The notes under the pieces are model-generated. The model worked only from the letters and a program-made list of their open reading frames with translations. It made no database searches and had not been told where the DNA came from. DNA of 64,000 nucleotides from Aliterella atlantica CENA595 (GTDB lineage Bacteria; Cyanobacteriota; Cyanobacteriia; Cyanobacteriales; Chroococcidiopsidaceae), in assembly GCF_000952155.1 (NCBI RefSeq), contig NZ_JYON01000010.1, positions 1-64,000 of the forward strand, given 5' to 3'. Of this stretch, positions 6,065 to 16,239 are shown piece by piece. Both the position numbers and the translations under genes were made by a program. How positions within the stretch are numbered: the stretch's first letter is position 1; each line of letters starts with the position of its first letter.

Positions 6065-6137
6065 GCCCCCATCGTCTAGAGGCCTAGGACACCTCCCTTT
6101 CACGGAGGCGACGGGGATTCGAATTCCCCTGGGGGTA
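6065..6137 (+). tRNA. trnE: tRNA-Glu(TTC), canonical copy
   Basis: A complete cloverleaf: acceptor GCCCCCA / TGGGGGT, D arm with AGAGGCCTAGGAC, anticodon stem CCTCC / GGAGG around loop CTTTCAC (anticodon TTC), T loop ATTCGAA and discriminator A137. CCA is not encoded. This is the normal glutamate tRNA, which in cyanobacteria also feeds tetrapyrrole synthesis through glutamyl-tRNA reductase. It is the reference for judging the damaged Glu-like gene in the array at 11593. Confidence 0.96.
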
Positions 6138-9341: not shown

Positions 9342-9380
9342 AAGGGCGTACTATTTAAGTACGCCCTTGTAATTTTTATG
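9342..9380. terminator. Bidirectional intrinsic terminator
   Basis: AAGGGCGTAC (342-351 of this kb) pairs perfectly with GTACGCCCTT (359-368) around a 7-base loop. AT-rich sequence with short T-runs lies on both sides. It directly follows the stop of the minus-strand gene at 9376. Confidence 0.75.
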
Positions 9381-9714
9381 CCATAGGTAAGCTTTCTGTA
9401 CGTAAAGGAACCAAATCGCCAGTAGTGGTAAGTCCTAGTAACATTGATTCTTGCGGTCGAATTATTTGTCCTGAAAGTACGCAACGTTCCTCTTTTTGGG
9501 CTGTAGCAGCAAAACTCGCTCGAATATCCTCACTGGAATATTGGGATTTGTAATCGCCAGATTTCTGCTGCACGTAGTTCCACAAAATATCTCTAATTAG
9601 AGCTTGATATCCAACATTGCCTGAAAGTTCTTTAAGTTTGTCTTTCAACTCCCTCTCTAGCCGGATGCTAGTGACTTCCATTTCTGTCGTAGTGGTGCGC
9701 GTGAGTGTATGCAT
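9376..9714 (-). CDS. Conserved hypothetical with ribbon-helix-helix-like N-terminus
   Basis: From the ATG at 9714 (complement) the product is 112 residues: MHTLTRTTTTEMEVTSIRLERELKDKLKELSG then GYQALIRDILWNYV. The EVTSIRLERELKDKLKEL pattern resembles the strand and first helix of ribbon-helix-helix DNA-binding proteins. The C-terminal half (SSEDIRASFAATAQKEERC...) is unrecognised. I prefer this start over the longer one at 9780 because a GGAG box stands just upstream and the extra residues look untranslated. A terminator follows. A role in transcription control is inference. Confidence 0.65.
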   Translation of the reverse strand: MHTLTRTTTTEMEVTSIRLERELKDKLKELSGNVGYQALIRDILWNYVQQKSGDYKSQYSSEDIRASFAATAQKEERCVLSGQIIRPQESMLLGLTTTGDLVPLRTESLPMA

Positions 9715-9760
9715 CTTTAATTTCTCCAATATCTGGACAGGATAGTAATACAAGTGTAGT

Positions 9761-10045
9761 ATGTTTAAAGGAATGTTCAAGTCGCTCTTTAACTTAGTGA
9801 AATTTTCTGTGAAACCTCAAACCTCTATTTCCAAACCGTCGCCCTCCGGCTCAATGCATTTGAGTTGGGAATTGGCAGCTTTGGGAGTGGAGTGTCTATT
9901 TACAGACGATCGCCTCAGTCGGCGACAGATCGCAGCAGGAAATCATGAAAATTTGGCATATATCGGCAGCGGTGCGCTAAACCAAGCACTGCCAAATAAG
10001 CAAAGAAGCGGGAGGTACAGGCACAGAGTCGCCGTACCAATATAA
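9761..10045 (+). CDS. Possible small hypothetical protein
   Basis: A 94-codon frame (MFKGMFKSLFNLVKFSVK...) with a basic start and a more globular centre (LSWELAALGVECLFTDDRLSRR). There is no clear ribosome-binding site and I do not recognise a family. It overlaps no other gene when the minus-strand neighbour starts at 9714, and a terminator follows at 10075. It may equally be spurious. Confidence 0.3.
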   Translation: MFKGMFKSLFNLVKFSVKPQTSISKPSPSGSMHLSWELAALGVECLFTDDRLSRRQIAAGNHENLAYIGSGALNQALPNKQRSGRYRHRVAVPI

Positions 10046-10126: not shown

Positions 10127-10648
10127 GTGACGAGCGCTTTGGCTCAAGTGTTAGACCATTCTGTAGTGGTATTTTCCAAGAACTATTTGCCGATTAGCCG
10201 CGTCAATATCAAACGCGCGATCGCGCTGATGGTTACAGGTAAAGCTGAAGCACTAGACTTGACGGACGAAACGGCGTGGTTAGTGCGATCGCCTAATTTG
10301 GTAATTGCCGTACCGCAACATATCCGTCTAACGATTGCCAGCACCGAACGGATTTGGAAAGTACCCCCAGTAAATCGGCGCGAAGTCTTGAAGAGGGATA
10401 ACCACAGTTGCCAATACTGCGGTAGCAACAAACATTTGACGCTAGATCATGTCATTCCGGTATCAAAAGGCGGTCAGCATAAATGGGATAACGTCGTCAC
10501 AGCCTGCGAACCGTGCAACCAGCGCAAACGCGATCGCACGCCTAGTGAAGCTAATATGCCGCTACACACCAAACCAAAAGCGCCAATGCATCCCACTGTA
10601 GCTTTTGCCGAAAACTTCTGGCACAACGAAAATGCCTGCTCCCAATAG
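10127..10648 (+). CDS. HNH endonuclease family protein
   Basis: A 173-residue protein with a C-terminal HNH module: CQYCGSNKHLTLDHVIPVSKGG followed by NVVTACEPCNQRKRDR. The two CxxC pairs would bind structural zinc and DHVIP supplies the metal and catalytic histidine. The N-terminal half (VVFSKNYLPISRVNIKRAIALM) is the conserved leader of a chromosomal HNH family widespread in cyanobacteria, so this is probably not an intron or phage enzyme despite lying about 0.7 kb before the tRNA array. Start is GTG at 10127 with AAGGAG upstream. It is 14 bases before the next gene, so the two likely form an operon. Biological target unknown. Confidence 0.85.
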   Translation: MTSALAQVLDHSVVVFSKNYLPISRVNIKRAIALMVTGKAEALDLTDETAWLVRSPNLVIAVPQHIRLTIASTERIWKVPPVNRREVLKRDNHSCQYCGSNKHLTLDHVIPVSKGGQHKWDNVVTACEPCNQRKRDRTPSEANMPLHTKPKAPMHPTVAFAENFWHNENACSQ

Positions 10649-10662
10649 GAGGATTAAGGACA

Positions 10663-11052
10663 ATGCTGAAACTAACTTACATTGAGACTGGTTTTTATTT
10701 GGAATACATAGCTAAATCCTTAGAGGAGTGGGTACAAGGGCGAGTAATTTTGGCGCTAAGGGTTGGCGAGTGTTTGTGCATCGAACCTAGTACGGCTGCC
10801 TTTCTGCTCCCTGCGGATCTACCAGGTTTAGATACATTGGCTGTTGAAGTCAGACGGCAAGAGCCAGATGCTATTACTTTGAGTCTCTGCGATGCTGAGT
10901 ATGTTGAAGTCAGTATCAAAGGTACTTGGGTAAGTTCTGATACAGATAGCAATGAGGGCGTGTTTGTCGCCGCGATGTCTCACTCAATTGAGTTTTTCTT
11001 GCTCAAGTTGTGGCAAGCTTCTCAAGTTAGCGCTTCTGTTTTGAGCGAGTAG
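10663..11052 (+). CDS. alr0857-like conserved cyanobacterial protein
   Basis: A 129-residue soluble protein (MLKLTYIETGFYLEYIAKSLEEWVQGRVILALRVG...) that I take to be the family named after Anabaena alr0857, found throughout filamentous cyanobacteria with no known function. The SLEEWVQGRVILALR and EPSTAAFLLPADLPGL segments are the basis. A ribosome-binding site (AGGAGG) stands 10-15 bases upstream. It is probably co-transcribed with the HNH gene and ends at a terminator, so it does not belong to the tRNA array transcript. Confidence 0.65.
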   Translation: MLKLTYIETGFYLEYIAKSLEEWVQGRVILALRVGECLCIEPSTAAFLLPADLPGLDTLAVEVRRQEPDAITLSLCDAEYVEVSIKGTWVSSDTDSNEGVFVAAMSHSIEFFLLKLWQASQVSASVLSE

Positions 11053-11211: not shown

Positions 11212-11240
11212 TTGACATTTTTGTAGTATTTTTGTAGTAT
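11212..11240 (+). promoter_or_regulatory. Promoter of the tRNA array
   Basis: A consensus-like -35 box TTGACA (11212-11217) and a -10 box TAGTAT (11235-11240) are separated by exactly 17 bases; TATAAA overlaps the -10 at 11238. The spacer is built from two copies of ATTTTTGTAGT in tandem (11217-11227 and 11228-11238), which could be an operator. Transcription would start near 11247, about 75 bases before the first tRNA. No other good promoter is visible inside the array, so a long polycistronic tRNA precursor is plausible. Confidence 0.75.
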
Positions 11241-11323
11241 AAATGTAAGGCAAGAGACAAAGAGCTAAAAACTTTGATCTCAAGCAATTGGAACCTTGAA
11301 AACTGAATAATTCCACGATTAAT

Positions 11324-11397
11324 CGCGGTGTAGCTCAATTGGTTAGAGCGTCCGGTTGTCTGCCGGAAAGTTGCGAGTTCGAGTCTCGTCACCGTGG
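11324..11397 (+). tRNA. tRNA-Asp(GTC)
   Basis: Acceptor CGCGGTG pairs with CACCGTG (one G-U). Anticodon stem TCCGG / CCGGA encloses TTGTCTG, anticodon GTC. T loop TTCGAGT is intact and the discriminator is G, as expected for Asp. First gene of the array. CCA is not encoded. Confidence 0.92.
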
Positions 11398-11400
11398 TAA

Positions 11401-11476
11401 AGACTGAGTACCCAAGCGGCTCAAGGGGGAAGATTGCAAACCTTCTATACGTGAGTTCAAATCTCACCTCAGTCTT
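11401..11476 (+). tRNA. tRNA-Cys(GCA)
   Basis: Acceptor AGACTGA is perfectly complementary to TCAGTCT. The anticodon loop TTGCAAA gives GCA; the stem has one A-C mismatch at its loop end. T arm GTGAG / CTCAC with loop TTCAAAT. Discriminator T fits cysteine. The 5' base is A instead of the usual G. Confidence 0.88.
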
Positions 11477-11480
11477 GAAT

Positions 11481-11509
11481 GCGTTAGCGAAGCTTACCGA
11501 AGGTATCGC
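11481..11509 (+). repeat. Dispersed palindromic cyanobacterial repeat
   Basis: GCGTTAGCGAAGCTTACCG followed by AAGGTATCGC is a small imperfect palindrome of the kind scattered through cyanobacterial genomes. Its right end forms the first bases of the acceptor stem of the next tRNA, so the repeat abuts or overlaps the tRNA 5' end. Confidence 0.55.
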
Positions 11510-11578
11510 AGCGTAGCTTAACAGTAGAGCGCCAAGCTCATAACTTGGTCGATGCGGGTGCAAATCCCACTGCTGTCA
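11507..11578 (+). tRNA. tRNA with anticodon CAT (Met or Ile2), divergent
   Basis: Anticodon stem CCAAG / CTTGG with loop CTCATAA is clean (CAT). The acceptor pairs except at position 1 (C-C), the T loop reads TGCAAAT instead of TTCAAAT, the T stem has one mismatch and the 7-base D loop lacks the usual GG. The 5' end lies in a dispersed repeat. Sequence cannot tell elongator Met from lysidine-modified Ile2. Function is less certain than for its neighbours. Confidence 0.72.
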
Positions 11579-11592
11579 CCTGTGCCTAATAT

Positions 11593-11683
11593 GGCTCTAT
11601 TGTCTAGCGGTCAAGGACATCCGACTTTCGGAGAACACGGGTACTCTACGAGAAGGCTTCGCCTACGAGTCCCGTTAGGGCTA
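11593..11683 (+). pseudogene. tRNA-Glu-like gene split by a repeat in the T loop
   Basis: Acceptor GGCTCTA pairs with TAGGGCT and the D arm (GTCTAGCGGTCAAGGAC) matches tRNA-Glu. The T stem ACGGG / CCCGT is intact, but its loop is 29 bases instead of 7 because a 22-base palindromic repeat (CTACGAGAAGGCTTCGCC core, 11647-11664) has entered, flanked by TAC on both sides. The anticodon arm is also broken: around CTTTC only three base pairs form. The normal copy at 6065 is intact. This gene is probably dead unless the insert is removed from the RNA. Confidence 0.75.
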
Positions 11684-11690
11684 CTGTATT

Positions 11691-11773
11691 GGGTTGGCTC
11701 ACCTATGGGTGCGGGTAGCGGTCTGTAAAACCGCCGCTTAATTGCTTTGCTGGTTCAAATCTAGCCCAACCCA
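11691..11773 (+). tRNA. tRNA-Tyr(GTA)
   Basis: Acceptor GGGTTGG / CCAACCC is perfect. Anticodon stem GCGGT / ACCGC encloses CTGTAAA (GTA). A long class II variable arm follows, as bacterial Tyr requires, and the discriminator is A. The D loop is unusually short. Confidence 0.9.
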
Positions 11774-11777
11774 TTGT

Positions 11778-11864
11778 GGAGAAGTGACTGAGAGGCTTAT
11801 AGTATCTTCCTGCTAAGAAGACACGGTTTAAAACCCGTCGGGGGTTCAAATCCCCCCTTCTCCG
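11778..11864 (+). tRNA. tRNA-Ser(GCT)
   Basis: Acceptor GGAGAAG / CTTCTCC is perfect. Anticodon stem TCTTC / GAAGA with loop CTGCTAA gives GCT. The long class II variable arm (around ACGGTTTAAAACCCGT) and discriminator G are normal for serine. Confidence 0.94.
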
Positions 11865-11895
11865 TGCAATTAGGGCGATCGCAAATCAAATTTGA

Positions 11896-11970
11896 TGCCT
11901 CATAGCTCAACGGCAGAGCGTCCCGCTGTTAACGGGAATGTTGTAGGTTCAAATCCTACTGAGGCAGCCA
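11896..11970 (+). tRNA. tRNA-Asn(GTT), CCA encoded
   Basis: Acceptor TGCCTCA / TGAGGCA is perfect and the D arm (AGCTCAACGGCAGAGC) is canonical. Stem TCCCG / CGGGA encloses CTGTTAA (GTT). Discriminator G967 is followed directly by CCA at 11968-11970, which most tRNAs of this array lack. Confidence 0.93.
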
Positions 11971-11975
11971 TTTAT

Positions 11976-12047
11976 TGCCGAGTGGACGAATGGCAAGTCG
12001 CATGGCTCTGAACCATGAGATTACAGGTTCAAACCCTGTCTCGGCAT
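11976..12047 (+). tRNA. tRNA-Gln(CTG)
   Basis: Acceptor TGCCGAG / CTCGGCA and anticodon stem CATGG / CCATG are both perfect. The loop CTCTGAA gives CTG. It reads CAG codons, which the TTG tRNA beside it could also read by wobble, so it is not strictly needed. The discriminator is T instead of the usual G. Confidence 0.88.
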
Positions 12048-12051
12048 CTAT

Positions 12052-12124
12052 AGCCCTGTGGTGTAATTGGCAACACATCTGAATTTGGCTCAGATGACTC
12101 CAGGTTCGAGTCCTGGCGGGGCTG
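12052..12124 (+). tRNA. tRNA-Gln(TTG)
   Basis: Acceptor AGCCCTG / CGGGGCT has one U-G pair. Anticodon stem TCTGA / TCAGA encloses ATTTGGC, anticodon TTG. Position 37 is G where A is usual, and position 32 is A. The D stem GTGT / ACAC and T loop TTCGAGT are intact, and discriminator G fits Gln. Confidence 0.85.
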
Positions 12125-12133
12125 TCAAATTCT

Positions 12134-12212
12134 ACTCCTGTAGCCCAATTGGTAGTAGGCGACTGTCTCAAAAACAGTTCATGTGTGGGTTCGACTCCCA
12201 CCAGGAGTACCA
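12134..12212 (+). tRNA. tRNA-Leu(CAA)-like with short variable arm, CCA encoded
   Basis: Acceptor ACTCCTG / CAGGAGT and anticodon stem ACTGT / ACAGT are perfect. Loop CTCAAAA gives CAA. Only six bases (12179-12184) separate the anticodon stem from the T stem, so this is a class I tRNA, whereas bacterial Leu tRNAs carry a long variable arm. Discriminator A fits Leu, and CCA follows at 12210-12212. It shares the TGTAGCCCAATTGG block with the next three Leu-type genes. Charging by LeuRS is uncertain. Confidence 0.85.
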
Positions 12213-12218
12213 AATTTG

Positions 12219-12294
12219 GCTCCTGTAGCCCAATTGGAAGAAGGCGACAGACTTAAAATCTGTTTATGTAAGGGTTCGAGTCCCTTCAGGAGCA
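12219..12294 (+). tRNA. tRNA-Leu(TAA)-like with short variable arm
   Basis: Acceptor GCTCCTG / CAGGAGC and anticodon stem ACAGA / TCTGT are perfect. Loop CTTAAAA gives TAA. The variable region is about six bases, so class I. Very similar to the preceding CAA gene in acceptor and D arm, implying duplication. Unlike the usual cyanobacterial tRNA-Leu(TAA) it has no group I intron. Confidence 0.86.
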
Positions 12295-12324
12295 TACAAG
12301 CGATCGGACTTTACATACGGACTC

Positions 12325-12367
12325 AAGAGTATTAACTGGTCGCTGGTCACTGGTTACTGGTCACTGT
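12325..12367. repeat. Dispersed CTGGTCACTGGT-type repeat
   Basis: Near-tandem units of CTGGTCACTGG and CTGGTTACTGG occupy the widest gap of the array (12295-12370). A related sequence in the opposite orientation occurs at 61118-61146 (ATCAGCGACCAGTGAC). Such units are common in cyanobacterial intergenic DNA. Confidence 0.6.
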
Positions 12368-12370
12368 CAA

Positions 12371-12442
12371 CGGGGTGTAGCTCAGGGGGAGAGCGCCTGC
12401 TTTGGGAGCAGAATGTCGTGGGTTCAAATCCTACCACTCCGA
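12371..12442 (+). tRNA. tRNA-Pro(TGG)
   Basis: Acceptor CGGGGTG / CACTCCG has one G-U pair. Anticodon loop TTTGGGA gives TGG; the stem CCTGC / GCAGA has one C-A mismatch at its outer end. D arm AGCTCAGGGGGAGAGC and T loop TTCAAAT are normal, discriminator A. Confidence 0.9.
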
Positions 12443-12450
12443 TTTGCCAT

Positions 12451-12525
12451 ACTCCCGTAGCCCAACTAGGCAGAGGCGTTAGGTCGAGAGCCTAATTAGT
12501 ACCAGTTCAAATCTGGTCGGGAGTA
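12451..12525 (+). tRNA. tRNA-Leu(GAG)-like with C33 and short variable arm
   Basis: Acceptor ACTCCCG / CGGGAGT and anticodon stem TTAGG / CCTAA are perfect. The loop TCGAGAG places GAG at 34-36 but C, not the near-universal T, at position 33. The variable region is about five bases (class I). Discriminator A. It belongs to the same family as the other short-armed Leu genes. Confidence 0.82.
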
Positions 12526-12533
12526 TCAAATTT

Positions 12534-12608
12534 ACCCCTGTAGCCCAATTGGCACGAGGCGCTGCGCTTAGAACGTAGATATTGCTGGTTCAAGTCCAGT
12601 CAGGGGTA
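12534..12608 (+). tRNA. tRNA-Leu(TAG)-like with short variable arm
   Basis: Acceptor ACCCCTG / CAGGGGT is perfect. Anticodon stem CTGCG / CGTAG (one G-U) encloses CTTAGAA, anticodon TAG. Short class I variable region, discriminator A. Fourth member of the Leu-type group; together they cover CAA, TAA, GAG and TAG. Confidence 0.85.
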
Positions 12609-12618
12609 TTGGTGATAA

Positions 12619-12695
12619 TGCGGGGATGAAGCAAAGGCGGCTTGCCAGGTTCATACCCTGGAAATCAGTAGGTTCGACTCCTACCCCCGCCACCA
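12619..12695 (+). tRNA. tRNA with anticodon CAT (Met/fMet/Ile2), CCA encoded
   Basis: Anticodon stem CCAGG / CCTGG with loop TTCATAC gives CAT. The acceptor GCGGGG pairs with CCCCGC while position 1-72 is T-C, an unpaired end reminiscent of initiator tRNA. The three G-C pairs of the anticodon stem of true initiators are not present, so the type is left open. D stem AAGC / GCTT, T arm GTAGG / CCTAC, discriminator A and CCA at 12693-12695. Confidence 0.82.
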
Positions 12696-12703
12696 AATCA
12701 CAC

Positions 12704-12777
12704 GGGTCTGTAGCTTAACTGGGAAAGCGTCTACCTTGCAAGTAGAAAGATGTGGGTTCGATTCCCATCAGTATCCA
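12704..12777 (+). tRNA. tRNA-Ala(TGC) with bulged acceptor
   Basis: Anticodon stem TCTAC / GTAGA with loop CTTGCAA gives TGC. The acceptor GGGTCTG pairs fully with the 3' strand only if T12772 is bulged; then G706-T774 forms the G3-U70 pair that AlaRS needs, and the discriminator is A777. Without the bulge two mismatches arise. T loop TTCGATT is normal. Confidence 0.82.
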
Positions 12778-12781
12778 CTGT

Positions 12782-12857
12782 GGTGTCTGAAGTCAAAGCG
12801 GTCGAGACGCTTGTTTGTGGAACAAGTAATTAGGGAGTTCAAGTCTCCTCAGACACC
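12782..12857 (+). tRNA. tRNA-His(GTG)
   Basis: Acceptor GTGTCTG / CAGACAC is perfect. An extra G at 12782 (G-1) faces discriminator C857, the histidine identity pair. Anticodon stem CTTGT / ACAAG encloses TTGTGGA (GTG). T loop TTCAAGT. Confidence 0.93.
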
Positions 12858-12860
12858 CTC

Positions 12861-12943
12861 GGAAGATGCCGCTAAATGGTCGGCAACTGGTCTTGAAAAT
12901 CAGGGTAGGGTAACACCTAGGGGTTCGATTCCTCCATCTTCCT
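12861..12943 (+). tRNA. tRNA-Ser(TGA)
   Basis: Acceptor GGAAGAT / ATCTTCC is perfect. Anticodon stem CTGGT / ATCAG encloses CTTGAAA, anticodon TGA. A class II variable arm of about 15 bases is present. The discriminator is T where serine normally has G, and the T stem has one mismatch, so charging efficiency is uncertain. Confidence 0.85.
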
Positions 12944-12948
12944 TATGA

Positions 12949-13021
12949 CCACTGAAGGCGGAAATAGTGACGCGCACAGCCGATAACTGTGTTGTAGGAG
13001 GGGCAGTACCTCCTCGGTGGA
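12949..13021 (+). tRNA. tRNA-Ile(GAT)-like, divergent, with C33
   Basis: Acceptor CCACTGA pairs with TCGGTGG (one U-G). D stem GCG / CGC, anticodon stem CACAG / CTGTG and T stem GGAGG / CCTCC are all intact. The anticodon loop CCGATAA gives GAT but with C at 33, and the T loop is GGCAGTA, lacking the TTC signature. Standard tRNA finders could miss it. A tRNA fold is clear; activity in translation is doubtful. Confidence 0.65.
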
Positions 13022-13028
13022 TACTTGT

Positions 13029-13290
13029 GGGGAGGTCGCCTAATGTGGAATGGCACCGCAAAAATGTTGTGAAGCGGCTCCTAAAACGACGGCTGAGTTT
13101 GTTAAGTAGGGTAATAAAGTTGCTTCGCGACGTTCCCCAAAAACGGCAAATTGGCGACAGGTTACAGAAGCACTGAAAGGAATTAATAGTCCGAGATGGG
13201 GGTAGTTCCCATTAACCTACGGGTTGTAAGAAAGCGCGTTTCCTAAAAGTTGCTGTCAGTACGATGCGGGTTCGAGTCCCGTCCTCTCCT
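13029..13290 (+). pseudogene. tRNA split by about 180 bases
   Basis: The 5' half has acceptor GGGGAGG (13029-13035) and a good D arm (GCC / GGC around TAATGTGGAAT). The 3' half has T arm GCGGG-TTCGAGT-CCCGT (13266-13282) and acceptor CCTCTCC (13283-13289), which pairs with GGGGAGG with one G-U. About 180 bases lie between the anticodon region and the T arm. A hairpin CCGC / GCGG containing TTGTGAA (13056-13077) may be the anticodon arm, but no clean 7-base loop forms. The insert contains a TTCGCGACGTTCCCC repeat-like piece and an ATGGG / CCCAT hairpin. I could not find the conserved cores of a group I intron. Confidence 0.5.
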
Positions 13291-13294
13291 TTTT

Positions 13295-13364
13295 CCCTTG
13301 GCTGCTGGATGCAGACTTATCTCTACGAAAGATTAGTAGCTAGGTTCAATTCCTAGACAAGGGG
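13295..13364 (+). tRNA. tRNA-Arg(ACG)
   Basis: Acceptor CCCTTG pairs with CAAGGG; the seventh pair is G-A. D stem CTGC / GCAG has a 5-base loop. The anticodon loop CTACGAA gives ACG (A34 usually becomes inosine), with a four-pair stem. T arm CTAGG / CCTAG, loop TTCAATT. Discriminator G. Somewhat reduced but recognisable. Confidence 0.78.
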
Positions 13365-13385
13365 TTAGTTTAGATGATGTTTTTT

Positions 13386-13458
13386 GGGGATATAGCTCAG
13401 TTGGTAGAGCAGGAAACTCTTAATTTCATGGTTGCAGGTTCGATCCCTGTTATCCCCA
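13386..13458 (+). tRNA. tRNA-Lys(CTT)
   Basis: Acceptor GGGGATA / TATCCCC is perfect and the D arm (AGCTCAGTTGGTAGAGC) is canonical. Anticodon loop CTCTTAA gives CTT with a stem of four pairs plus one G-A. T loop TTCGATC, discriminator A. A poly-T stretch stands just upstream. Confidence 0.92.
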
Positions 13459-13470
13459 TTTAATTTTATC

Positions 13471-13543
13471 GGGTGGTTGGCATAGCGGCTCGTGCAGCGA
13501 ACTTTTAATTCGCACTAGAGAGGTTCGACTCCTCTACCGCCCA
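13471..13543 (+). tRNA. tRNA-Lys(TTT)
   Basis: Acceptor GGGTGGT / ACCGCCC has one U-G pair. Anticodon stem GCGAA / TTCGC is perfect around CTTTTAA, anticodon TTT. T arm GAGAG-type with loop TTCGACT, discriminator A. Last gene of the array, 39 bases before the next reading frame's ATG. Confidence 0.92.
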
Positions 13544-13582
13544 TTTTATTTGAGAGGCGCGATCGCTTTTACTTATTCGTCT

Positions 13583-14044
13583 ATGACCTACAAAACATTA
13601 GCGGAAATTGAAAGTCTAGTTGGAGCTTTTGAAGATTGCGTGCTGCCTCGTTCCTGTTGGACTCATCAAGCTCATTTGACTGTTGCTTTATGGTATCTTA
13701 CGCATTTTTCAGAGGAACAAGCAATTAACTGTATGCGCGATCGCATTCGTAAATACAACGTTGCCACCGGAGTTGAAAACACAAAAAATAGCGGCTATCA
13801 CGAGACAATAACTTTATTTTGGCTGCGGGTTATTTCCAACTATCTTATTTCTGAAATTCAAGTCTATGAGCTTGTAGATATAGCTAATAAGTTACTCAAT
13901 ACATACAAAAATTCTGGACTTGTATTTGAATATTACAGTCGCAATTTATTGTTGTCTTTTGTGGCTCGTAGTAACTGGATCGAGCCAAATCTTAAGCCCT
14001 TATCATATCTGTTTGAAAATAGCAAGATAAATGAGCATATTTAA
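13583..14044 (+). CDS. Conserved hypothetical protein of the tRNA island
   Basis: From the ATG at 13583 (MTYKTLAEIESLVGAFED) the product is about 153 residues. I recognise only a widespread unnamed family with the pattern SCWTHQAHLTVALWYLTHF and a conserved GYHETITLFWLRVI segment; the invariant His and Glu residues suggest a binding or catalytic site, but no function is known to me. A longer start at 13550 is possible but lies almost against the last tRNA. Its stop overlaps the ATG of the RNA ligase gene by 14 bases, so the two are probably translationally coupled. Confidence 0.75.
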   Translation: MTYKTLAEIESLVGAFEDCVLPRSCWTHQAHLTVALWYLTHFSEEQAINCMRDRIRKYNVATGVENTKNSGYHETITLFWLRVISNYLISEIQVYELVDIANKLLNTYKNSGLVFEYYSRNLLLSFVARSNWIEPNLKPLSYLFENSKINEHI

Positions 14045-15020
14045 AGTAGAAGTAGTCCAAATTAATAGTGTCAATCCTCACCCTAATGCCGACCGCTTAG
14101 ATATTGTCACTATTAACGGTATGGCTTATCAAGTAATTACTGCTAAAGGAAATTTTCAAGTTAGTGACTTAGCTTTTTACTTTCCTATTGATAGTGTTAT
14201 TCCCGATGATTATTTAGACAAATTTGGTATCCGTTCTTACTACAGCAAGAAGTTACGGGCTGCTAAACTAAGAGGTATGTTTTCTGAAGGTTTGCTTATT
14301 CCTGTTGATGGAGATTTTAACGGCAATGTAGGAGACGACCTTACAGAGTATTTTGGCGTAAAAAAATACGAGTACCCTATACCTCAAAATATGAGTGGTG
14401 AGGTAGAATCTCATATTGGGCAATACAAGTTTCCTAGTCCCGAACATCTCAAGCGCTACCCCGATGTTTTACAAATAGGGGAAGAAGTAGTAGTTACAGA
14501 AAAAATTCATGGGACTAATTTTACAATTTTAGTTGATGAAAATGGTACTCATGTCAGTAGTCATAACTACTTTTGGAAAAATAATGTAATTAACAAAAAC
14601 TTAGTTTATGTTCGTGCCTACAACGAATTTAATTGTTTGCAAAATTTACCAATAAATACTCAAGTATTTGGAGAGATATATGGCGTTCAAGATATTAAGT
14701 ATGGATTATCTAACGGCAAAATAGGCATTGCTGTATTTGCTGTTAAAAATAACGGTAATTTTCTAGACTACGACGAATTTGTAGCATTTTGCGCTCGCTA
14801 TTCTTTACCTCAAGTACCTTTACTTTATCGAGGTGCTTACAGTCGGGAAGTAATATCGCAGTTTAACAATGCGAGTAGTGTTGTAGATGAAAACTCGATT
14901 ATGGAGGGTGTCATCATTCAGCCTGTGCGCGAAAGAACTCATCCTGAAATTGGTCGAGTGGTACTGAAGTTAATTAGCGATCGCTATTTGCTGCGTAGTG
15001 GCGGTACTGAACTACAATAA
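14031..15020 (+). CDS. RNA ligase, DRB0094 (Rnl5) type
   Basis: A 329-residue ATP-dependent RNA ligase. The nucleotidyltransferase motifs are complete: motif I EKIHGTN with the AMP-accepting Lys158, motif III VFGEIYG (Glu215), motif IV MEGVII (Glu292) and motif V VLKLI (Lys313). The N-terminal about 110 residues resemble the OB module of Deinococcus RNA ligase, with KLRGMFSEGLL at 80-90. They also contain HPNADRL at 17-23, a signature of tRNA-binding OB folds such as Trbp111 and the PheT N-terminus. Known relatives seal nicked RNA. Position directly behind 23 tRNA genes points to tRNA repair, which is inference. It is AT-rich compared with flanking housekeeping genes, suggesting transfer. Confidence 0.9.
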   Translation: MSIFKVEVVQINSVNPHPNADRLDIVTINGMAYQVITAKGNFQVSDLAFYFPIDSVIPDDYLDKFGIRSYYSKKLRAAKLRGMFSEGLLIPVDGDFNGNVGDDLTEYFGVKKYEYPIPQNMSGEVESHIGQYKFPSPEHLKRYPDVLQIGEEVVVTEKIHGTNFTILVDENGTHVSSHNYFWKNNVINKNLVYVRAYNEFNCLQNLPINTQVFGEIYGVQDIKYGLSNGKIGIAVFAVKNNGNFLDYDEFVAFCARYSLPQVPLLYRGAYSREVISQFNNASSVVDENSIMEGVIIQPVRERTHPEIGRVVLKLISDRYLLRSGGTELQ

Positions 15021-15030
15021 TAGAAGAATT

Positions 15031-16239
15031 ATGGGCATTAGACATTTTAGTAATTATCAGGGTAATCCTCAATACCGCGATCGCAAGGATAGCGATTTAC
15101 TAGGTGCAGGTTGGCAACCTAAGCGTCGAGAATTGGATTGGGGATATCTCTTCAATATCGTGCAAAACGATCCTGGCGAACTTACTCACAAAGCTGTAGA
15201 TTTGGCTAGCGATCTTGCAGATGCACTCACTCGTAAAGATTATAGCTGGTGGGCGAATATACTCAACGTTTTTTCTGATTATACGCGATCGGATATAGAT
15301 GAGTTTTGGGACTACATTACCCCCGAACCCAACGCACCAGACTATCAATACAAAGATGTATTGAGTACGGAAACACCTGTCAAGCAAGAAGTTAGCCGCG
15401 ACAGCATACCGATTGAATACGTACTCAATCGCTTGCAAGAAATTACTGTACTTAAAGTATTAGATATTTTAGGACGTCCTGACTCTATTACTCAATGCTT
15501 TCAAGATCGGTATTTTTATTACCCTGTAGAACGCTTTGTTGACTGGAAACGAATTGAAAATGTGGGGACTGTATTAGCTTATTGGTCTAAACATGAGATT
15601 TGGCTGCAAATTAATCATGCTAGCTTAACTCAACGCCGATATACTTTAATTGCTAAAGAATTAGGGCAAATAGTTAATAAAGCTACTTACAATTTGGCAG
15701 TAATGCTTAGTGGATATCAAAGCCGTGTCGGTAAGATTTTTAGCGAATTTCATATTCGCACTTTTCCTAGTGATATTCAAAGTTTTACTGATGTAGTGCA
15801 GCAAGCAATTTTAGATCGAAATCGAGTAGCTGTATTAGTTCAAGGCGATCCTGGTACTGGTAAAACTGCATGGACGCAAGCGGTAGCCAAAGAAGTTTTG
15901 ATACCTCTTGGATACGTAATTTTTATTTTAGACCACGACGCTGTAGAAAACTTTGTGCCACCTAGTTACTTAGAACGGATTTGTTTGATTATCAATGAGG
16001 CTGATAACTTAGCTCAAAATCGAGCAAATATTGCTGCTTAGTCTAATAACAAGACCGAGCATATTTTGAGTTTACTTGATGGCACATTGTATCAAAGCGT
16101 AGTTGACCAGGCAGGGATTCAAGCTCAACAAAGATTGGTTGTATTGATGACTTGCAATACTACAGAAAGATTAGATCCAGCTATTTTGCGTAAAGGAAGA
16201 GTAGATTTAATGTACGAATTTACTCAGCGTTTCGTTTAG
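15031..16239 (+). pseudogene. AAA+ ATPase interrupted by an in-frame TAG
   Basis: From the ATG at 15031 the frame runs 336 codons to a TAG at 16039-16041, then continues open in the same frame for 65 codons to a second TAG at 16237. The first part has an unrecognised N-terminal domain (about 250 residues), Walker A GDPGTGKT near 272-279 and Walker B CLIINEAD near 318. The second part supplies the missing half of the AAA module: HILSLLDGTLYQ, sensor-1 asparagine in VVLMTCNTTERLDPAI and the arginine of LRKGRVDLMYEF, a BCS1-like arrangement. So either the gene is broken by one nonsense change or the TAG is read through. It is 10 bases behind the ligase, on the same strand. Confidence 0.85.

Follow-up and report, generated by a model that had tools for sequence, protein, structure and literature searches.

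The stretch analyzed here, the first 64,000 nucleotides of contig NZ_JYON01000010.1 of Aliterella atlantica CENA595 (hereafter the window), carries a long array of transfer RNA (tRNA) genes followed on the same strand by genes for a small helical protein, an RNA ligase of the Rnl5/DRB0094 type and an AAA ATPase, all behind a promoter overlain by operators of the type bound by the ribbon-helix-helix (RHH) repressor TrcR (table 1). A first-pass annotation, made from the sequence alone, had placed a candidate tRNA-reserve and repair island at 11212..16239; these limits proved too narrow in that they omit the trcR gene and its HNH and alr0857-type neighbors.

The array comprises 20 tRNA genes called by ARAGORN between 11323 and 13543, of which 17 reach the Rfam gathering score (the 18th Rfam tRNA of the window, a tRNA-Glu at 6065, lies outside the array) and 19 carry U33 in their anticodon loops. 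Together with a Glu-like gene, an Ile-like remnant and a tRNA-like RNA (RNA265), this bears out the 23 tRNA or tRNA-like genes counted in the first-pass annotation, and it gives the dense same-strand cluster of at least 20 tRNA genes that characterizes TrcR-controlled L-arrays. The promoter, described there as strong, does have the TTGACA and TAGTAT boxes at a 17 nt spacing, but it is not simply strong: tandem TGTAGTAT boxes (11222-11229 and 11233-11240), with an 11-bp step and zero mismatch to the tandem operator, cover its -10 region, and a degenerate third box follows at 11244-11251. As TGTAGTAT occurs five times in the whole window versus 2.0 expected, a single box is weak evidence, and it is the tandem form that carries information.

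A TrcR-controlled tRNA array is already known. In Anabaena 7120 (PMC10272220), a 26-gene tRNA operon is silenced by TrcR, which binds TGTAGTAT across the operon's -10 box, TAGTAT; translation-blocking antibiotics lift this repression and lower TrcR protein, and deletion of trcR raises rtcB, the AAA gene all0263, asr0855, alr0856 (HNH) and alr0857. The long Anabaena array is silent in normal growth, and the purpose of such arrays is still under study. Because the same site, footprinted in Anabaena, covers the -10 region in tandem in the window, the window's array promoter is likewise expected to be silent in normal growth. The trcR gene lies 1.5 kb from this promoter on its upstream side and has a tandem operator of its own (9744..9762), which corresponds to the motif published for trcR when taken from the opposite strand. 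TrcR homologs are present in 127 of 194 genomes of the class, and a tandem box lies within 1.5 kb upstream of the homolog's own gene in 28 of 30 cases (control pattern 0/30).

Rnl5/DRB0094 ligases have an N-terminal OB-type domain and nucleotidyltransferase motifs I, III, IV and V. The window's ligase has both PF21189, as the OB-type domain, and PF09414, carries the motifs as KIHG158, FGEIYG213, EGV292 and LKL312, and scores 161.4 bits against TIGR02306 (curated cut-off 151.15), in agreement with the family and catalytic motifs named in the first-pass annotation. Its closest solved chain is the RNA ligase of Naegleria gruberi (5cot), the founding member of the Rnl5 group. The protein genes are packed as that annotation had it, the small open reading frame (ORF) running into the start of the ligase gene and the AAA frame beginning 10 nt behind the ligase stop. 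The small protein has 1034 homologs, with no Pfam domain among the 120 listed; W26, H28, H31, E74 and T75 are invariant among 35 sequences, and its AlphaFold2 model (mean predicted local distance difference test, pLDDT, 81.5) has no convincing match in the PDB (best E 0.2). The AAA gene is in place behind the ligase as annotated, but its frame is closed by an amber codon at a position that is open in nine of nine relatives compared, and the full-length protein is probably not made in this genome. Uninterrupted relatives are about 400 amino acids (aa) long with PF00004; in the two that were scanned this domain follows a long N-terminal part in which no family is above cut-off, and an uninterrupted relative has a weak PADLOC match to TRIP13 (2.6e-09). 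Suppression of the amber codon was considered and rejected, since none of the array tRNAs called by ARAGORN has a CUA anticodon.

Our preferred reading, held with moderate confidence, is that this operon-like stretch behind a TrcR-type promoter acts under translational stress to replace damaged tRNAs or other RNAs of translation and, at the same time, to reseal them. TrcR would repress the array promoter, and a single transcript would run through the array and the protein genes. When translational damage lowers TrcR, as shown in Anabaena, the spare tRNAs and the ligase would rise together; the released array would refill the tRNA pool, and the ligase would seal breaks with 3'-OH and 5'-phosphate ends after other enzymes had healed them. 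Candidates for end-healing are Pnkp/Hen1 and an HD-kinase protein, whose operons in the window's genome also carry TrcR-type operators. The AAA and small proteins are likely helpers. We infer the joint function of array and ligase from the one TrcR-type promoter before both, from the recurrence of the gene order in another lineage, and from Anabaena, where a tRNA reserve and an RNA ligase share a regulator because RtcB and the tRNA array are both TrcR targets. To this extent the proposed tRNA-reserve and repair island holds for the locus; as a general pairing of arrays and ligases it does not. If one repressor does free the spare tRNAs together with an RNA-sealing enzyme, on one transcript, arrays would be one arm of a response to translation damage. 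The first half of this mechanism is already established in Anabaena, and all genes behind a tandem TrcR operator form a directly testable regulon.

The second lineage is that of the uncultured cyanobacterium PMM_0008 (G405; L285, L286), in which about 18 kb read in one direction hold 29 tRNAs, RNA265, a member of a 245-aa family, the small protein, a vWA-like protein, the Rnl5 ligase, KptA, a NUDIX gene and AAA. The order array, small protein, ligase, AAA is thus common to the window and G405, and two tandem TrcR-type boxes stand between the G405 array and its protein genes. In Argonema antarcticum (G411), the array, RNA265, the 245-aa family, and the small and vWA-like proteins are on one contig, and the ligase, KptA, NUDIX and AAA genes on another.

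Within the genus of A. atlantica the ligase is present in six of six genomes at 80-84% identity, versus none of the 13 other genomes of the family. Between operator and ligase the window has 20 tRNAs, Synechocystis sp. PCC 7509 (G388) three ARAGORN tRNAs and remnants, G391 one tRNA and remnants, and G389, G390 and G392 none. The remnants of PCC 7509 match the window's array over its first 214 nt at 85% identity; in the array-less congeners a homologous promoter stands in front of the ligase, and in the G392 copy (L016) part of the leader preceding the first tRNA is still recognizable. Presumably the array was lost in these congeners while ligase and operator were kept. Such remnants and absences, together with the amber stop and the degenerate tRNAs, would also suit an island in decay, in which the array, the AAA gene and perhaps the entire operon persist in the window's genome as remnants subject to weak selection. 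With the AAA gene interrupted and some tRNAs degenerate the island may be decaying, yet we consider this improbable given that the ligase and small ORF are open, the ligase is well kept across the genus, the array operator has zero mismatch and 17 array tRNAs reach the Rfam score.

Eight array tRNAs can be compared with housekeeping counterparts (from 24 non-array tRNA loci of the genome and five other stretches): the anticodon loop is identical in four (Tyr, Asn, Pro, Lys) and different in four (Asp, Cys, Ser, Arg), a pattern that fits replacement tRNAs. The array tRNA-Asp (11323-11398) has the unusual loop TTGTCTG; that of the housekeeping tRNA-Asp is CTGTCAC. The first-pass annotation had proposed recovery from anticodon nucleases, as in phage defense or toxin damage, with spare tRNAs and ligase restoring translation. 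This follows the general logic of T4-type tRNA repair after an anticodon nuclease; spare isoacceptors are indeed present, and since four of the eight loops differ some array tRNAs could escape a nuclease. The other four loops, including that of Lys(UUU), are however the same as in the housekeeping tRNAs, neither the ligase nor the small protein matches a PADLOC family, and the published inducers are translation-blocking antibiotics (PMC10272220). Phage defense has no direct support in this analysis, and we regard a phage-defense or counter-toxin island as improbable.

Array loci were sampled as 52 stretches picked by hand from the best matches, those in ligase genomes included, to which the window and PCC 7509 were added, 54 in all. 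A largest cluster of at least eight ARAGORN tRNAs was needed for inclusion, which kept 44 arrays (several genomes contributing more than one) and dropped 10; 20 stretches of 16 kb (320 kb) from the same genomes served as controls. Upstream of the arrays, tblastn finds the HNH gene on the same strand in 34/44, the alr0857 type in 30/44 and a divergent TrcR-like gene in 27/44, each in 0/20 controls; ORF clustering gives 33, 30 and 24, respectively. These three are the usual array partners across cyanobacteria, and the ligase is not. An operator lies within 700 nt of 33 arrays (reversed pattern 0/44; two matches in the control regions, reversed one), and 32 of these 33 also have a TTGACA-like -35 box. 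Downstream on the array strand, tblastn identifies the vWA-like protein at nine arrays (its vWA matches fall below Pfam cut-offs), the 245-aa family at seven, KptA at three, the Rnl5 ligase at two and RtcB at one, with one further, weak ligase match (28% identity); the controls give one vWA-like, one 245-aa-family and one AAA match. Counting repair enzymes together with the vWA-like protein and Ro60, 14/44 arrays are positive versus 1/20 controls (p 0.016).

The ligase itself is rare, occurring in 3/388 genomes of the class (E 1e-10), and a search of the named genome collection gives 13 loci; 17 ligase genomes were surveyed in total, some loci ending at contig edges. At 9/15 loci the 1.5 kb upstream of the ligase contain a tandem operator with up to two mismatches (reversed control 0/15), and an operator-like site precedes the ligase or its operon in 11/17 genomes when PCC 7509 (before the tRNAs) and the window (2.8 kb upstream, before the array) are added. 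Array-like DNA (E <1e-20) is found in 11/14 ligase genomes versus 36/193 others (Fisher p 6e-6, not corrected for relatedness), the 14 being the window's genome and 13 further ones, with G389, G390 and G392 not among them. The first-pass annotation had proposed counting how often the ligase lies within 5 kb of an array of more than eight tRNAs. Among the 17 ligase genomes this is so in the window only (less than 3 kb upstream being covered in L006, L008 and L015), the G405 array lying 10 kb from its ligase and G388 and G391 retaining remnants. A general ligase-array pairing is rejected given the rarity of the ligase in the class, its presence near 2/44 arrays and its absence from cyanobacterial plasmids (34 plasmid records matched, none cyanobacterial by name).

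Several of these results weigh against our preferred reading: array and ligase are seldom neighbors, whether counted from the arrays (2/44) or from the ligase (arrays of at least eight tRNAs near it in 2/17 genomes); strict RNA-repair enzymes near arrays (6/44, one of them the weak match, versus 0/20 controls) are not significant alone (p 0.094); the 1.5 kb upstream of the ligase holds no operator at 6/15 loci; the arrays of G405 and G411 have no operator within 700 nt; and there is the interruption of the AAA gene and the degenerate state of some tRNAs. In an alternative reading, the array and the ligase-AAA pair would share a regulator and have separate jobs, being independent members of the TrcR regulon that came together in one promoter slot by trcR, with the ligase mending other RNAs and not specially tied to the tRNAs of the array. 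The 42 of 44 arrays that lack the ligase, the ligases behind an operator without tRNAs in G389, G390, G392, L010 and L018, and the location of Anabaena rtcB on the chromosome and its array on a megaplasmid, both being TrcR targets (PMC10272220), point that way. Set against this are the identical gene order in G405 and the further RNA-repair genes downstream on the array strand elsewhere, KptA in L239 and L259 and RtcB in L269, and we consider separate jobs a rather unlikely explanation. In L269 (G161) the RtcB match begins ~160 nt downstream of an array of nine tRNAs that has a TrcR-type operator.

A search of the window's whole genome for the tandem pattern with up to two mismatches gives 56 matches (reversed control 17). 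Nine sites have at most one mismatch; two lie inside ORFs and seven precede genes, namely the array, trcR, Hen1/RlaP/Pnkp, an RNA ligase with an HD-kinase, rtcB, a relative of the 245-aa family (28% identity, E 1e-16), and tRNA-like, Y-RNA-like genes with Ro60. The list starts from operator sites, so these repair operons, found through the operator, are not an independent count. Comparison with other genomes shows the box retained ahead of Ro60 in 17/30 (12 of the 17 from one genus) and ahead of AAA in 10/30 (reversed control 0 each). It is kept before Hen1 in 2/10 and before the second ligase in 2/5, the window's genome included, and these two operators may therefore be peculiar to that genome. 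More broadly, TrcR could be a master switch of cyanobacterial RNA damage control, acting through the tandem operator on tRNA arrays, the Rnl5-AAA operon, RtcB, Pnkp/Hen1, the second RNA ligase with its HD-kinase, and Ro60 with its tandem Y-RNA-like array, with TrcR-HNH-alr0857-array cassettes gathering RNA-repair genes behind tRNAs as portable translation-rescue islands; we put this forward tentatively, as a possibility short of an even chance.

At the sites themselves, Hen1, DUF6717, RlaP and Pnkp form an operon behind a zero-mismatch tandem operator (L081:365-5504, contig C38), and the second RNA ligase (PF09414) and an HD-plus-kinase protein lie behind a TrcR-type operator at L082:2510-4606 (contig C32). 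At L080:3740-5100 (contig C59) an operator precedes a series of tRNA-like RNAs in which a common Y-module motif occurs seven times, and the Ro60 gene comes just after; five of these RNAs reach the Rfam tRNA score with long inserts, and YrlA matches are below the family cut-off. The operator-preceded rtcB (L085:4418-5216, contig C48) is interrupted behind codon 86 and followed by an HNH gene, and a second RtcB gene lies at L092:2190-3626.

RNA265 occurs as seven copies in seven genomes, in or near arrays, with 77-86% identity to the window copy and one copy diverged at its 5' end. It combines tRNA-like acceptor, D and T arms with a long conserved insert. Ten of 71 predicted pairs show a double change that keeps pairing, and the window copy taken alone folds no better than shuffles (z -1.02). 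It belongs to no Rfam family, the sole match being that of its T-arm to tmRNA (11.1 bits). The copy of G003 (L241) lies ~0.6 kb upstream of a Ro60 gene.

Among the left-hand neighbors, the HNH gene matches PADLOC HNH families such as PtuB (1.5e-08), and the alr0857-type protein has a predicted structure of mean pLDDT 67.2. A plasmid origin of the cassette was rejected, TrcR and alr0857-type matches occurring in just one plasmid record, of Kovacikia; array-like DNA does occur in cyanobacterial plasmids (among the best 30 of 59 records). A phage origin was also rejected, alr0857 having no match and TrcR matching only at half length, in nine Nodularia phage records (H85-H93; 41% identity over 56 residues). 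Ligase matches occur in 208 phage records, every one below 60% identity.

Table 1. Features of the trcR-array-ligase locus (window positions unless a locus is named)
Feature	Position	Strand	Remarks
trcR, RHH repressor gene	9379..9717	-	Gene order trcR / asr0855 / HNH / alr0857 as in Anabaena 7120
Tandem TrcR-type operator between trcR and asr0855-like gene	9744..9762	+	AGTAATACAAGTGTAGTAT, 1 mismatch to TGTARTAYNNNTGTARTAY
asr0855-like small ORF	9761..10045	+	Kept at same place in L005, L006, L011, L016
HNH endonuclease gene, alr0856 type	10127..10648	+	PF14279/PF01844
alr0857-family gene	10663..11052	+	Name and PF28246 from its relatives
Promoter with tandem TrcR-type operators	11212..11251	+	-35 TTGACA at 11212, 17 nt spacing, -10 TAGTAT at 11235
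tRNA genes 1-17 of array: Asp, Cys, Met, Tyr, Ser, Asn, Gln x2, Leu x2, Pro, Leu x2, Met, Ala, His, Ser	11323..12943	+	ARAGORN; 15/17 pass Rfam gathering score
tRNA-Glu-like gene with insert	about 11593-11683	+	Own reading of sequence; no call by ARAGORN or Rfam
Ile-like tRNA remnant	about 12960-13027	+	Own reading of sequence
RNA265, tRNA-like ends flanking conserved insert	13028..13292	+	265 nt; sequence comparison
Other RNA265 copies	L285:5972-6232, L287:5705-5965, L235:9315-9575, L240:8076-8341, L241:12735-12998, L242:6315-6539		
Final three array tRNAs: Arg(ACG), Lys(CUU), Lys(UUU)	13294..13543	+	ARAGORN; both Lys genes also Rfam
Small helical protein, 153 aa	13583..14044	+	ORF overlaps ligase start
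Rnl5/DRB0094-type RNA ligase, 329 aa	14031..15020	+	TIGR02306, PF09414 and PF21189
AAA ATPase gene, interrupted	15031..16239	+	Amber stop 16039-16041; frame resumes behind stop to 16239

Our searches of the openly licensed literature turned up no description of the fusion of an array with an Rnl5-AAA operon, of array remnants at such a site or of the G405 island, nor of the operator before Pnkp/Hen1 or before Ro60 with Y-RNA-like genes. The Anabaena 7120 trn operon (L-array) resembles the window in its long tRNA array, in TGTAGTAT over TAGTAT, in the trcR, asr0855, HNH and alr0857-type genes of its genome and in the HNH gene that adjoins the array (all8564; PMC9938897). It differs in that the window's array sits at the trcR locus and is followed by the small protein, Rnl5 ligase and AAA genes, whereas the TrcR-controlled ligase reported for Anabaena (PMC10272220) is RtcB, away from the array. 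The Salmonella rsr-yrlBA-rtcBA operon (PMC7790460) is likewise a stress-switched RNA-repair module with tRNA-like RNAs beside it, but it relies on the activator RtcR and on RtcB/RtcA, whereas the window has repressor-type operators, real tRNAs and an ATP-dependent Rnl5-type ligase. RtcB and Ro60 queries have no match in the window locus (L019), both genes lying elsewhere in the genome. Rnl5/DRB0094 ligases such as those of Naegleria gruberi (5cot) and Deinococcus (DRB0094) share with the window's ligase the domain make-up, a TIGR02306 score above cut-off and the nucleotidyltransferase motifs. DRB0094 stands in the context of HD-Pnk and macrodomain genes; the window's ligase has a tRNA array, the small protein and AAA as partners instead, and an HD-Pnk query has no match in any of the 44 array loci, the window's included. 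The bacterial Pnkp/Hen1 RNA-repair system (PMC4411300) has its counterpart in the Hen1, RlaP, Pnkp operon behind a zero-mismatch TrcR-type operator, which in the genome of A. atlantica lies on another contig, outside the window.

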